From assembly GCA_016212505.1 (NCBI GenBank), contig JACRGB010000011.1:1-32235 (forward strand): DNA of 32,235 bases. Reading direction: 5' to 3'. A model generated the notes under the pieces. That model was given only the letters and a program-made list of their open reading frames with translations, was not told where the DNA came from and did not search any database. This document shows, piece by piece, positions 5,507 through 27,471 of this stretch; position 1 is the stretch's first letter; each line of letters begins with the position of its first letter. The position numbers and the translations under genes were made by a program. The stretch is from Microcaldota archaeon. GTDB lineage: Archaea; Micrarchaeota; Micrarchaeia; Anstonellales; Bilamarchaeaceae.

Positions 5507-5682
5507 AGCCTCAGGAGAGATTTGAACTCCCGACTTCCTCCTTCCACCTTTTGGAAAAAGGTGGACCAAAACTGTTCCTCCAATTTCGAAAGTTTACAAG
5601 AGAGGCACTCTACCATTGCACTCGTTTTTGCATTTTTTGCTTTGGGCAAAAAATTAGCAAAAACAAACTGAGTTACTGAGGC
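5507..5682 (-). tRNA. tRNA-Thr (anticodon TGT) with two introns: D-loop and anticodon loop
   Basis: Reading the minus strand from 5682: acceptor GCCTCAG pairs with CTGAGGC (5508-5514); T arm GGGAG/TTCAAAT/CTCTC; anticodon stem CCTCT pairs with GGAGG; loop CTTGTA plus A; anticodon TGT at 5596-5598; discriminator U73 as in archaeal tRNA-Thr. Total 176 nt, mature 75 nt. A canonical 37/38 intron of 52 nt lies at 5543-5594. A second insert of 49 nt (5619-5667) splits the D loop after A14-G15. The D-loop insert folds into a long hairpin (GTTTTTGC, TTTTTTGC, loop, GCAAAAAA, GCAAAAAC) and ends with GAGTG, an exact copy of the exon sequence that forms the 3' side of the D stem. Splice points in the D loop can shift by a base or two. 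Confidence 0.88.
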
Positions 5683-5710
5683 TTAATAAGAAATATGTTC
5701 TGCCTTCTGA

Positions 5711-8518: not shown

Positions 8519-9013
8519 ATGACACAAACTGCTCGTCAAAGACTGAGTCAAAGTTTGACTCGAAGTTTCGGAATTCGTTCATTGCCTTTTGTTGCTGCAA
8601 TAACCAGTTTCGCTCCCTTATTAGGAGGATGCGAAGCTCCCAATCCGAATTACAACCCTGGTCAAATCTGCGAGGTCCCACCTTCTGCAAGAACTCCTGT
8701 GGAAGGATGGTTTACTACAACTCCAAGACCTGTTGGCGGCTTATCGATCAAATATGTGGATGGTATGCTTGGCCCTCGCAGTGGCGATGATCGGGCACTA
8801 ATGGGTGTTGGTTGCGCTCCTCCAACTGCTAAAGGAAACGAATTTGGTATTGTCGCAGTTTCAGCAGGTCTTATTGATTTTTCTTTTACTAACGGAAGGC
8901 AACAAATATCCTTCTTAGTTCAAAACGTCGGATTTGCTGCTCCCGGCAGCCACGATAAATCTTATGAAAATCGGGCCTATTTAAGAGGAGAAGTCTCAGC
9001 AACAAATTATTAG
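8519..9013 (+). CDS. Putative secreted lipoprotein, unknown function
   Basis: 164 residues. A basic N-region (RQRLSQSLTRSFGIR) precedes a moderately hydrophobic segment ending FAPLLGGCEAP, a good lipobox with Cys38. The rest (about 125 residues) is beta-rich with three further cysteines and motifs such as GWFTTTPRPVGGLSIKYVDG. I do not recognise the family. The gene is leaderless, divergent from guaAA, and its stop (9011-9013) is immediately followed by the 33-nt inverted element and hairpin array. Together with the next gene it forms a small accessory block just upstream of the RNA polymerase operon. Confidence 0.65.
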   Translation: MTQTARQRLSQSLTRSFGIRSLPFVAAITSFAPLLGGCEAPNPNYNPGQICEVPPSARTPVEGWFTTTPRPVGGLSIKYVDGMLGPRSGDDRALMGVGCAPPTAKGNEFGIVAVSAGLIDFSFTNGRQQISFLVQNVGFAAPGSHDKSYENRAYLRGEVSATNY

Positions 9014-9018
9014 TTCGG

Positions 9019-9051
9019 CATATACTCAACCAAGTAAGTTTCTCCGATTTT
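9019..9051 (-). repeat. 33-nt inverted element, copy A
   Basis: The minus strand of this stretch is identical, 33 of 33 bases, to 19298-19330 on the plus strand. It begins AAAATCGGAGAAACTTACTT and ends GGTTGAGTATATG. Here CTCAACCAA (9025-9033) pairs with TTGGTTGAG (9073-9081), so the element forms one arm of a hairpin. Confidence 0.9.
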
Positions 9052-9272
9052 GTTTCAGAAGCTTTATCTCAGTTGGTTGAGGATGGCAAAAAGCTGAAAA
9101 GCTTTTTGACTGTGTCCCAAAAACTCCGCGAGTTTTTGGACAGTCGTGAAACCGTAGTTTCACAACATCTTGAAAGCCGCTGCTTTCAAGGACATAGTTG
9201 TGCCATGGAAAATTTCTTAAATTTTCCATAATTGACCGTAACGACGGTCAATGCCAAATAATTAATTTGGCA
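9025..9272. repeat. Array of at least eight consecutive hairpins
   Basis: In order: CTCAACCAA (9025-9033) with TTGGTTGAG (9073-9081); AAAAAGC/GCTTTTT (9088-9107); TGTCC + AAAAACTC with GAGTTTTT + GGACA (9113-9142); GTGAAAC/GTTTCAC (9146-9163); CTTGAAAGC/GCTTTCAAG (9169-9190), clasped by CACAAC/GTTGTG (9161-9202); ATGGAAAATTT/AAATTTTCCAT (9205-9229); TTGACCGT/ACGGTCAA (9232-9251); TGCCAAAT/ATTTGGCA (9252-9272). Loops are only 3-6 nt and spacing between stems is 0-14 nt. Stems differ in sequence, so this is not a tandem repeat or CRISPR. It fills the 369-bp gap between two unknown genes (9014-9382). Confidence 0.88.
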
Positions 9273-9349
9273 CAGGATAATCAAACAAAAATCGATTCAG
9301 ACTGATTCAAAAACTTATTTTACAAACATCAAGACTCTTCGAAAGATTC

Positions 9350-9382: not shown

Positions 9383-10156
9383 ATGGCAGTTCAAAGACGA
9401 ATCGTATTTAATGCCGAAAGATTTGGACAAATTGAAGTTGCTTTGAAAAAAGCAGGCTTTGTTGATTGCGGAAAAAACCCACATACTAATCTTCCAGTTC
9501 TTGTTGATAAGCCAAGATCATCTGGTTTTAGGCAACGACTGGCAGTAACCTCCAGTAGTGGGAGCAGCTCTACCGAAAAAAAGGGATGGGAGTATGATCT
9601 TAGTGTATATTGCGAAGTAGCTGCCCCTAAAGACCGCGCTATTTTGTTCGCCTTAAGAGAATTAGGCTATCTTTACAATCGGGATATTCGCTATTCAGGT
9701 GCTTCCGGGTACTTCCCTCTGCCTGATAGGAGTTGTCCTTGTTTTGGTATTTCTGTCGCACCTGAGGTTGTTGTGGTTTCTGATACTTTCCATCTTGATC
9801 GCCTGATTGAGGCCAGCAAACAGCTCATCGCAGCTCTCGCAGCCTTAAAGGGCAATACGATACTCAAAACTGCAAGAGACGCCCAACTCTCTGCCCAGGA
9901 ACTTAGGACACACTCCAGTTTGCCAATGGGCAATGCATTTGGAAGAGATGTAGTAGCCATAGTCAGGCTCAGTCAAAAACTGGTTGAAAAAATGGATGCA
10001 GCGTACGATGCAGGAGTAGATTTCCTCAGGGTAAATGCGCAAATCTCTGATGCAATGAAATTAGTTTGTCCTAATTATGTATCCCATATGCGTTCAATAC
10101 GGCCTAGCGAGATCTCTGTCAGGTCAGCTGCGATTTCCAAAAGCGCTCATTTATAA
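9383..10156 (+). CDS. Hypothetical protein of unknown family
   Basis: 257 residues, leaderless ATG. The N-terminal half is alpha/beta (RIVFNAERFGQIEVALKKAG, then a strand-rich YDLSVYCEVA and YFPLPDRSCPCFGISVAPEV). It has a Ser-rich linker at about 54-65 and a CPCFG motif near 117. The C-terminal half (about 130-257) is mainly helical with alanine-rich helices. No signal peptide or membrane segment is visible, so it should be cytoplasmic. I cannot name a family. It lies between the hairpin array and rpoH, and the TATA element of the rpo operon overlaps its last codons. Confidence 0.6.
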   Translation: MAVQRRIVFNAERFGQIEVALKKAGFVDCGKNPHTNLPVLVDKPRSSGFRQRLAVTSSSGSSSTEKKGWEYDLSVYCEVAAPKDRAILFALRELGYLYNRDIRYSGASGYFPLPDRSCPCFGISVAPEVVVVSDTFHLDRLIEASKQLIAALAALKGNTILKTARDAQLSAQELRTHSSLPMGNAFGRDVVAIVRLSQKLVEKMDAAYDAGVDFLRVNAQISDAMKLVCPNYVSHMRSIRPSEISVRSAAISKSAHL

Positions 10157-11959: not shown

Positions 11960-11996
11960 GGTGAAATTTTTATGGGTTGAACGGTGTTCCGTTCAA
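11960..11996 (+). promoter_or_regulatory. Leader before rpoB1: ribosome site, two-codon ORF and hairpin
   Basis: GGTGA (11960-11964) precedes ATG GGT TGA (11972-11980), a Met-Gly-stop ORF with ideal spacing. The stop lies in the left arm of a perfect hairpin, TTGAACGG (11977-11984) / TGTT / CCGTTCAA (11989-11996). A second GGTGA at 12009-12013 then serves the real rpoB1 start at 12021. Confidence 0.55.
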
Positions 11997-12020
11997 ATAT
12001 AAAAAAATGGTGATTTTTTT

Positions 12021-13865
12021 ATGGTTATGAAGAAACGAAAAAGAAAATCGATTCCAGAACTTACGAGCATATTTCTTAATGGCCGGCTGATCGGTACGCA
12101 TGCAGATGGCAAATCGCTTGCAACCCGTTTGAGGGAGCGCCGAAGAATGAACGAACTTAGCAACCAGGTCAATATCTATTACAACGCACGTTTGAACGAA
12201 CTTTATATCCTCACTGATAAAGGCAGGGTAAGAAGACCATACATCGTAGTCGAGAATGGAAAATCCCGTCTTACAACTGATATCATGAACAGGATAAAGA
12301 ACAATGAACTCAACTGGAACCACCTGGTCAAATTAGGGATAATCGAATTCCTTGATGCGCAGGAAGAAGAAAACTGCCTTATTGCAATAAAAGAGGTGGA
12401 AATAACCCCGGACCACACCCATCTTGAAGTGGATTCATCAAATATTTTCGGTGTTGTTTCTGGCGTGCTGCCATACCCTGAATACAATTCTTCACCAAGA
12501 ATTACCATGGCCTGTGCCATGACTAAGCAGTCCCTCGGTATTTACTCTGCAAACTTTGCCCATCGTTATGATACGCGGGCATATGTTATGTATTATCCGC
12601 AGGAGCCTATGGTACAGACCTCGCTTTATAAGGCCCTTCGGCTTCGTGAAAAAGCCGCAGGACAAAACTGCGTTGTAGCACTTACTTCTTACCACGGATA
12701 TAATATGGCTGATGCTATTATTGTAAACCGCTCTTCAATCGACCGGGGCCTCGAGCGGGTAACAATGTTCAAAACATACGAAACAGAAGAGCGCATGTAC
12801 CCTGGCGGACAGCGCGATAAGATCGAGCTTCCGACTCCAGAAGTAGTTGGTTATCGGGGAGAAGAGGCATACAAGCACTTGGCTGAAGACGGGATTGTCC
12901 TTCCGGAAAGCGAAGTTGACGGCAAGGATGTATTAGTTGGTAAAACCTCGCCACCAAGATTCTTGGAAGAAATCTCTGTTTTCGGTGCAGTTGAAGAAAA
13001 GAAAAGGGAAAGTTCGCTTTCGCTAAAAAGCGGGGAGAAAGGGAAAGTCGATTCAGTGCTTATCACCGAAGGCCCAAGCGGAAACCGTTTGGTCAAGGTA
13101 AGGATCAGGGGAATCAAGACCCCAGAAGTCGGAGACAAATTAGCTTCAAGGCACGGGCAAAAGGGTGTTATTGGCTTAGTTGTCCCGCAGGAAAATATGC
13201 CATTTACTGCCTCTGGAATTGTTCCTGATTTAATTGTAAATCCACACGCTATCCCATCGAGAATGACTGCAGGCCATTTGCTTGAAACATTAGGCGGGAA
13301 AGCAGGTTCATTAGGCGGAACGCTTATGAATGGTACTGCATTTAGCGGAAACACAGAAGATGAATATCGTACCATCCTAAAGAAAGCCGGCTTCAACGAA
13401 TATGGCGAAGAAACGCTCTACGATGGTTTGACCGGAAGACAAATCACAACAAAAATATTTATCGGTGTAGTTTACTATCAGAGGCTGCACCACTTGGTTT
13501 CAAACAAGATGCATGTGCGATCACGCGGTCCGGTCCAATTACTTACCCACCAGCCGACCGAAGGACGTGCACGTGAAGGTGGTCTCCGGTTCGGGGAAAT
13601 GGAACGTGACTGCCTTATCGGCTATGGTGCCAGCATGCTGATTAAGGAAAGGCTGCTTGAAGAGAGCGATAAAACAATCCAGTTAGTCTGCACCGAATGC
13701 GGTTCAATTGCAACACATGATTATGCCCGCAACCGCGACGTTTGCCCGATTTGCGATTCAGAAAATGTACAGCCAGTGGAAATGAGCTACGCGTTCAAGC
13801 TATTGCTTGATGAAATTAAATCGTTGTATATTTTCCCAAGGATGATTTTGAAGGATAAAGGTTAA
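12021..13865 (+). CDS. rpoB1: DNA-directed RNA polymerase subunit B' (C-terminal half of B)
   Basis: 614 residues matching the downstream half of Rpb2. It opens with IPELTSIFLNGRLIGTHADG. The hybrid-binding/active-centre region includes GDKLASRHGQKGV, and NPHAIPSRMTAGHLLETLGG follows. RSRGPVQLLTHQPTEGRARE and GGLRFGEMERD come near the C-terminus, with a zinc ribbon CTECG...CPIC. ATG 12021 has GGTGA 7 nt upstream; ATG 12027 is a possible alternative. The B''/B' split is a normal archaeal state, not a mutation. Confidence 0.98.
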   Translation: MVMKKRKRKSIPELTSIFLNGRLIGTHADGKSLATRLRERRRMNELSNQVNIYYNARLNELYILTDKGRVRRPYIVVENGKSRLTTDIMNRIKNNELNWNHLVKLGIIEFLDAQEEENCLIAIKEVEITPDHTHLEVDSSNIFGVVSGVLPYPEYNSSPRITMACAMTKQSLGIYSANFAHRYDTRAYVMYYPQEPMVQTSLYKALRLREKAAGQNCVVALTSYHGYNMADAIIVNRSSIDRGLERVTMFKTYETEERMYPGGQRDKIELPTPEVVGYRGEEAYKHLAEDGIVLPESEVDGKDVLVGKTSPPRFLEEISVFGAVEEKKRESSLSLKSGEKGKVDSVLITEGPSGNRLVKVRIRGIKTPEVGDKLASRHGQKGVIGLVVPQENMPFTASGIVPDLIVNPHAIPSRMTAGHLLETLGGKAGSLGGTLMNGTAFSGNTEDEYRTILKKAGFNEYGEETLYDGLTGRQITTKIFIGVVYYQRLHHLVSNKMHVRSRGPVQLLTHQPTEGRAREGGLRFGEMERDCLIGYGASMLIKERLLEESDKTIQLVCTECGSIATHDYARNRDVCPICDSENVQPVEMSYAFKLLLDEIKSLYIFPRMILKDKG

Positions 13866-19297: not shown

Positions 19298-19330
19298 AAA
19301 ATCGGAGAAACTTACTTGGTTGAGTATATG
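19298..19330 (+). repeat. 33-nt inverted element, copy B
   Basis: Identical over 33 bases to the minus strand of 9019-9051. Here it is the left arm of a large imperfect hairpin. CGGA, AAACTTA, TTGGTT and TATA (within 19303-19328) pair with TATA, AACCAA, TAAGTTT and TCCG (within 19339-19365) around a loop of about 10 nt. The right arm is a diverged copy of the same sequence. Confidence 0.9.
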
Positions 19331-19406
19331 TTTGTGCCTATATACAAACCAAATAAGTTTTTCCGACTCGGTTTTTTGTATTTTACCTCATTTGGTTTTG
19401 TATAGT

Positions 19407-19431
19407 TGATCCAACTTTTTTAGTTGGATCA
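19407..19431. repeat. Perfect 10-bp hairpin
   Basis: TGATCCAACT (19407-19416), five T residues, AGTTGGATCA (19422-19431). A direct repeat GTATAG(T/C)TGATCC flanks it (19400-19412, 19432-19444). The 315-bp stretch 19198-19512 contains this, the two other hairpins and two promoters, and no gene that I can support. Confidence 0.6.
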
Positions 19432-19477
19432 GTATAGCTGATCCTCCGGTTTACATCGAATTTTCGGTCAATCGTCT

Positions 19478-20228: not shown

Positions 20229-20281
20229 GTTATGGATAACAAAAACTGGCTTTATAACCGTTTTGATGAGAAAAAATTAAG

Positions 20282-20395
20282 CGTCCTGGCCGGGGTTCGA
20301 ACCCGGGTCGCGAGAGTGACAGTCTCGTATGCTAACCACAAAGCGCTAAGAGCATCATTTTTATGAGTGACCCTCGAGCTCTACACTACCAGGAC
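20282..20395 (-). tRNA. tRNA-Asp (anticodon GTC) with a D-loop intron
   Basis: Minus strand from 20395: acceptor GTCCTGG pairs with CCAGGAC (20283-20289), discriminator G; D stem GTGT/GCAT; anticodon stem CGAGA/TCTCG with loop CTGTCAC (anticodon GTC); T arm CCGGG/TTCGAAC/CCCGG. The span is 114 nt and the mature form 72 nt. The extra 42 nt sit in the D loop, between GTGTAG and TGGTTAGCAT, at about 20339-20380. The insert can form AGAGC/GCTCT and TCAT/ATGA helices and has GCGC near its 3' end that can pair with the exon GTGT. The anticodon loop has no intron. Confidence 0.9.
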
Positions 20396-27341: not shown

Positions 27342-27471
27342 TCCCGTCGGCCTGACTTGAACAAGCAACCTTCCCGTTTCCAACTTTTAGGAAAAGTTGG
27401 TCAAAACTGACTCGTTAAAAGCGAGCAAAGCAAAACTACAGCGGGACGCTCTACCATTGAGCTACGACGGG
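27342..27471 (-). tRNA. tRNA-Tyr (anticodon GTA) with an anticodon-loop intron
   Basis: Minus strand from 27471: acceptor CCCGTCG pairs with CGACGGG (27343-27349), with the archaeal C1-G72 pair and discriminator A; D arm GCTC/AATGGTA/GAGC; anticodon stem TCCCG/CGGGA; loop CTGTAG plus A (anticodon GTA); T arm GCTTG/TTCAAGT/CAGGC. Total 130 nt, mature 72 nt. A 58-nt intron at the canonical 37/38 place is at 27378-27435. It contains CAGTTTTG followed by a hairpin CCAACTTTT/AAAAGTTGG that resembles the tRNA-Thr anticodon intron. Confidence 0.9.

Follow-up and report, generated by a model that had tools for sequence, protein, structure and literature searches.

What produced, and what keeps, a dense run of different perfect hairpins between two genes is the question raised by positions 9021-9279 of the window, the 32,235-nt stretch of DNA analysed here. 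The window is contig 44 of a Candidatus Micrarchaeota metagenome-assembled genome (MAG; G000; 1.48 Mb, 46 contigs, completeness 90%), whose RpoA′ is up to 77% identical to those of named Candidatus Micrarchaeota MAGs. The array begins 8 bp past the stop codon of the ORF at 8519-9013, directly after the upstream gene as had been described, and stops some 100 bp short of the next ORF (start 9383). No Pfam match was found for the proteins of the two ORFs (8519-9013 and 9383-10156). The first-pass annotation counted at least eight perfect stem-loops in this region. The run is real, but the count is slightly generous, since the region is filled by seven simple hairpins, all of them perfect, plus a long split stem (Table 1).

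Table 1. Features of the hairpin array and related features elsewhere in the window
Feature	Position	Strand	Remarks
Perfect hairpin	9087-9108		9 bp stem, 4 nt loop
Perfect hairpin	9117-9139		10 bp stem, 3 nt loop
Perfect hairpin	9146-9163		7 bp stem, 4 nt loop
Perfect hairpin	9169-9190		9 bp stem, 4 nt loop
Perfect hairpin	9205-9229		11 bp stem, 3 nt loop
Perfect hairpin	9231-9252		9 bp stem, 4 nt loop
Perfect hairpin	9252-9272		8 bp stem, 5 nt loop
Eighth structure	9026-9034 with 9072-9080		9-bp outer stem, long loop; not a simple hairpin
Whole composite (base and three inserted two-hairpin elements)	9021-9279	-	Covariance-model match 9021-9113 (-); alignment to C28:50104-50201
Base, long stem-loop	9021-9084	-	Kept in all copies; 11/13 helix pairs changed on both sides
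Insert 1, element A (hairpins 9087-9108, 9169-9190) enclosing B	9085-9193		Missing in C28 copy; A alone at C2
Insert B, 55 nt (hairpins 9117-9139, 9146-9163), between the two hairpins of A	9113-9167		C30 versus C2
Insert C (hairpins 9205-9229, 9231-9252) in the base's first hairpin	9205-9255		Missing in C28
Base, terminal hairpin TGTGCCAAAT / ATTTGGCACA, split by C	9198-9276	-	Uninterrupted in C28; 10/10 pairs double-changed
Second base copy, without inserts	19341-19437	-	103 bits, model R1
Further long-stem-loop fragment beside second base copy	19298-19330		
Apparently interrupted tRNA gene	20281-20395		
Apparently interrupted tRNA gene	27342-27471		
Apparently interrupted tRNA gene	about 5515-5700	-	

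A chance origin was ruled out by simulation and shuffling. The best 300 bp of the window holds 6 perfect non-overlapping hairpins (stem ≥7 bp, loop 3-8 nt), against at most 1-3 per 300 bp in 30 second-order Markov sequences of the same length, and the predicted RNA fold of 9014-9280 (-106.3 kcal/mol) is far below that of shuffled sequences (-57.6 ± 4.7; z = -10.4). The stems differ and form no regular unit, which is inconsistent with a CRISPR or tandem repeat; we agree with the first-pass annotation on this, as on its exclusion of an ordinary terminator. Nor does the array belong to a known RNA family by covariance model: Rfam 15 gave no match over the array at the gathering score, and only chance-level matches at E ≤ 5.

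Clustered hairpins are not confined to this locus. A genome-wide scan found 157 clusters of at least 2 hairpins and 40 of at least 3 in the host genome, compared with 9 and 0 in one simulated genome. Hairpins with a stem of at least 10 bp are 85% intergenic, in a genome of which intergenic DNA makes up 12% by our own gene calls, and a search of the genome with the array locus returned partial copies at many places. Two separate observations concern the wider setting. Locus L166 of Candidatus Altiarchaeales archaeon IMC4 has 16 hairpins of at least 8 bp in 22 kb, in five clusters, where about 1 hairpin is expected. About 18 contigs of G000 end in the same CCCCACC... / TTAAGGGGAAAA repeat, and since this repeat ends so many contigs the assembly probably broke at a high-copy repeat.

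Comparison of the copies within the host genome resolved the array into a base element and three inserted elements, A, B and C, each a pair of hairpins. When the window was aligned with the copy at C28:50104-50201, which is the base alone, the window proved to hold two blocks that this copy lacks: 9085-9193, which follows GGAT, and 9205-9255, which is bordered by TGCC at both sides. The base element's own sequence in the window is about 98 nt (9021-9084, 9194-9204 and 9256-9279); read on the minus strand, its long stem-loop runs TATAC..., conserved core CCAACTGAGAT ... AATCGG ... CTTACTTGG. The copy at C2:20927-21056 consists of the base and A alone, with A at the same base position as in the window, and that at C30:14129 of the base, A and B inside A, plus another insert in the terminal hairpin; alignment of C30:14129 with C2:20921 gave the B block as a clean insertion. 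Base alone (C28), base with A (C2), base with A and B (C30) and base with A, B and C (window) are all found within one genome, and the pieces of the array are dispersed repeats with uninserted and partly inserted versions in that genome. Because A occupies the same place in three base copies, the two may have spread together as a composite, instead of being joined by repeated insertion. That each stem has a sequence of its own, as had been claimed, holds in that the stems differ, but the pieces belong to families with further copies in the genome.

Two of these families could be followed further. An A-type hairpin between constant flanks TGG and ACTGT occurs at 21 places in the host genome, with stems that differ yet are always perfectly paired (CAAGAAACGC, CAAAAAGCT, CAAGAAAGC, CAAGAAATGC, CGGGAAACG, CAGGAAAGC and others), and the exact pattern is also present in two further genomes of the genus. 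A covariance model built from eight base copies, one row being the window copy minus its inserts, matched 13 places in the host genome (E ≤ 0.01). The base element has about 90 copies in 8 of the 43 family genomes, up to 32 in one genome, and is missing from most members of the same genus, a patchy distribution. A C-like double hairpin was found in genomes G002, G012, G013 and G021, just upstream of a reading frame.

A double hairpin also stands in the window at 11977-12022, just before rpoB′, with the start codon within the 3′ arm of its second hairpin, and array insert C resembles it. In relatives (L210-L213) a similar pair, ATTGACCGnnnnCGGTCAAT followed by ATAAAAATTT-loop-AAATTTTTATGGC, lies ahead of frames which, from their sequence, we take to be EF-2, S3Ae and S15. 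A role of these double hairpins in control of translation start is possible.

Our preferred account, at a probability of about 0.85, sees in the array several short, mobile palindromic elements nested in one another at a harmless intergenic site, the archaeal counterpart to the Rickettsia palindromic elements. It is supported by the dispersed and partly inserted copies, by the excess of hairpin clusters, by the covariation of stems between copies (figures below) and by the inserts in protein genes. The base element would have entered first; two-hairpin element A would then have landed in the base, B inside A, and C in the base's own hairpin. The fold may be kept both as a requirement for copying and because compact hairpins that leave a frame open would do little harm to host RNA or protein.

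Elements of this kind are predicted within genes as well. Several palindromes lie in frame in coding genes of the host, and the same palindrome-encoded peptide, NFSKNLSALEFANSN or MKNFAKIFQQRKFDRIYDT, occurs in unrelated proteins; predicted insert-encoded peptides include NFSKNLSALEFANSN and KNFAKIFQQRKF. A TldD/PmbA-family protein and an HGSNAT_cat protein (Pfam) share the peptide (K/R)TNFSKNLSALEFANSN, which comes from one double hairpin; a related double hairpin sits close to the C-terminus of what, read by eye, would be ribosomal protein L32e. The peptide MKNFAKIFQQRKFDRIYDT, from another hairpin, is shared by a LysE-family protein (Pfam) and a Dus-like protein (solved homologues), and an A-type hairpin pair is found in an epimerase-family protein (Pfam). 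When the predicted proteins were scanned for 10-residue peptides that few of them have in common, the palindrome peptides came up, alongside paralogues and other repeats.

The encoded residues are lacking in related proteins. The TldD insert of 20 residues is missing in five congeneric orthologues, and the epimerase (SDR) insert corresponds to an 18-residue gap against the solved structure 8rdg. Residues 8-124 and 148-255 of the Dus query align with 34-149 and 148-257 of the solved tRNA-dihydrouridine synthase B; the insert stretch has no counterpart there, since the flanking segments match adjoining parts of the solved protein. The base element itself forms a 33-residue insert in a membrane protein of G001, whose homologues in G010 and G044 are continuous, and a 24-26-residue insert in a protein of G053 with paralogues that have no insert. 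The G053 protein belongs to one family of unknown function with about 65 matches over many contigs of that genome, of which one member has an in-frame base element. Judged by predicted reading frames, protein genes thus carry base elements, A-type hairpins and double hairpins of similar form in frame, and their orthologues or homologues do without the residues.

Similar inserts were seen in tRNA genes. Only six tRNA genes of the host, among them one with an intron, pass the Rfam cut-off, compared with up to 36 in other genomes of the genus, and several of its weak tRNA matches are tRNAs with hairpin-rich inserts in the D- or T-loop. An A-like hairpin lies inside a tRNA-Thr-like gene and a CCCT-ATTGAAACGA-GGGG hairpin inside a tRNA-Arg-like gene, isotypes which we assign by eye. 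When 42 nt (20339-20380) were removed from the tRNA-Asp of the window, a normal tRNA call was restored. Most tRNA genes of G000 appear interrupted, often in the D- or T-loop and not the anticodon loop, and counts of uninterrupted tRNA genes within one genus range from 3 to 36.

That the elements are introns removed from RNA, and are tolerated in genes and tRNAs for that reason, was the reading held first, because the gene insertions were sense-oriented and excision restored frames; we now regard it as improbable. The D- and T-loop inserts would suit it, as would the restored tRNA-Asp call and locus L220 of G017, where a 98-nt element carries in-frame stops and its removal restores the frame. 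It was dropped as the main account of the base element because frames run open through the element at lengths divisible by 3, and because a loose restored-frame test (40 codons) gave 8 sense and 5 antisense cases of 76, which did not set the copies apart from randomly chosen sites (about 9-10% per strand). The three base insertions that have a long frame on either side and stay open throughout measure 99, 99 and 78, all multiples of 3 as translation but not splicing would need, whereas base lengths are divisible by 3 in only 23/84 aligned copies and frames are open in 40/252 copy-frame combinations; these lengths favour translation of the in-frame base insertions over splicing. A scan for standard bulge-helix-bulge (BHB) forms at guessed insert borders ± 8 nt found none at six of the seven tested D-/T-loop inserts and a weak one at the seventh, while the intron of tRNA-Ala, the positive control, scored clearly. 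Splicing would also leave the window's intergenic minus-strand copy unaccounted for.

Another reading is a functional structured RNA or composite 3′ end: the array would protect or end the transcript of 8519-9013, or form a small RNA of its own, and the stems would be maintained for this function. It seems distinctly unlikely. In its favour, the fold is very stable, long hairpins are mostly intergenic, and the base element covaries between copies. Covariation on 85 aligned matches was 0.391 (shuffled 0.124; slid ≤0.075), with changes on both sides in 24 of 26 pairs, figures that lean somewhat towards the structure as the alignment was fitted to the model and a few rows are weak overlapping opposite-strand matches. 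The base-element stems are kept by changes on both sides, but this is also expected if the hairpin is needed for mobility. Against the RNA reading, the base element lies on the minus strand relative to both neighbour genes, its distribution within the genus is patchy, Rfam gave no match, and copies, some of them partial, occur in unrelated surroundings and even inside genes. The view that selection or a creating mechanism must stand behind the stems is borne out by their covariation and by the nesting of dispersed repeats. Of the options that had been put forward, none gained support as stated, be it a structured noncoding RNA, cruciform DNA recognised by a protein or a landing zone for single-strand transposases: Rfam gave no match, no Y1 transposase gene was found in the host genome, and similar palindromes occur in protein and tRNA genes, as fits mobile palindromic elements. 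The array can be explained without a dedicated noncoding RNA and without a landing zone for transposases, though it may still have a role in the RNA.

It is very improbable that the array is a landing zone for, or derives from, an IS200/IS605 or REP-type system, whose Y1 transposase would move DNA flanked by hairpins. The two-hairpin layout with ends beside hairpins does resemble such element ends, but Y1 transposase (Y1_Tnp, PF01797) had no match in the host genome, while the same search was positive in six control genomes, and the left flanks of base copies showed no shared target motif by eye. Y1 transposase was accordingly rejected as the driver. RVT_1 (PF00078) had one match (G000:C38:26512-27009 (-), L312), with one internal TAG stop. 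With no Y1 transposase, a sole RVT_1 that is interrupted and flanks that share no motif, we describe the nested elements as non-autonomous without naming an enzyme, and infer that they are selfish. It counts against the preferred account that these searches identified no mobilising gene and that candidate target duplications vary, being TGCC at C, AT at most at A, none clear for the base and variable elsewhere. The neighbourhoods of guaA and rpoH match different contigs of G009, and synteny appears broken there.

Descriptions of palindromic repeats that encode a peptide in frame come mainly from Rickettsia, and how the repeats move there is unexplained. The Rickettsia palindromic elements are repeats of about 150 bp in ten families that lie in frame in genes otherwise unrelated and give a conserved peptide (Ogata et al. 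2000, 2002, summarised in PMC10969869), and a similar mechanism in other prokaryotes has been called conceivable in review (PMC10969869). The elements described here share with them the form of small dispersed palindromic repeats, in several families within one genome, which have no transposase gene of their own and lie both outside genes and in frame in unrelated protein genes, with a recognisable peptide that is missing from homologues. They differ in their archaeal host, in their two-hairpin units of about 50-100 bp, in being nested into arrays, and in that the same hairpin kinds occur in tRNA-gene inserts. We file them as a counterpart and not a member, since the likeness drawn here is one of lifestyle.

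Other known systems were compared as well. REP sequences and REPINs (RAYT transposases) are also short intergenic palindromes in many copies and doublets, but the host genome has no PF01797 Y1 (RAYT) match and members of the archaeal families sit within coding frames. Like the archaeal elements, MITEs, BOX and similar bacterial mosaics are non-autonomous, modular, dispersed small repeats; terminal inverted repeats with a constant target duplication were not identified in the archaeal elements, nor was a parent transposon in searches with PF01797 and PF00078. Archaeal BHB introns interrupt tRNA genes too, but the tested D-/T-loop inserts had no clear BHB, and some carry the palindrome kinds of intergenic arrays. 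No earlier report of palindromic elements in Micrarchaeota or of in-frame palindromes in archaea was found in the open-licence literature, which is weak evidence of novelty.

More speculatively, and with considerable doubt, this Micrarchaeota lineage might harbour an entire ecology of mobile palindromes that its proteins and tRNAs tolerate, building nested arrays, spreading by means other than known Y1 transposases and removed from tRNA precursors by a route other than standard BHB splicing. The nest of mobile palindromic elements would represent a Rickettsia-like lifestyle in an archaeon. Several families take part, a single genus offers both filled and empty sites, and tRNA genes have apparently been invaded. 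Two questions would thereby become testable by comparison: how hairpin elements that carry no gene make new copies, and what lets proteins and tRNAs of the host tolerate them.
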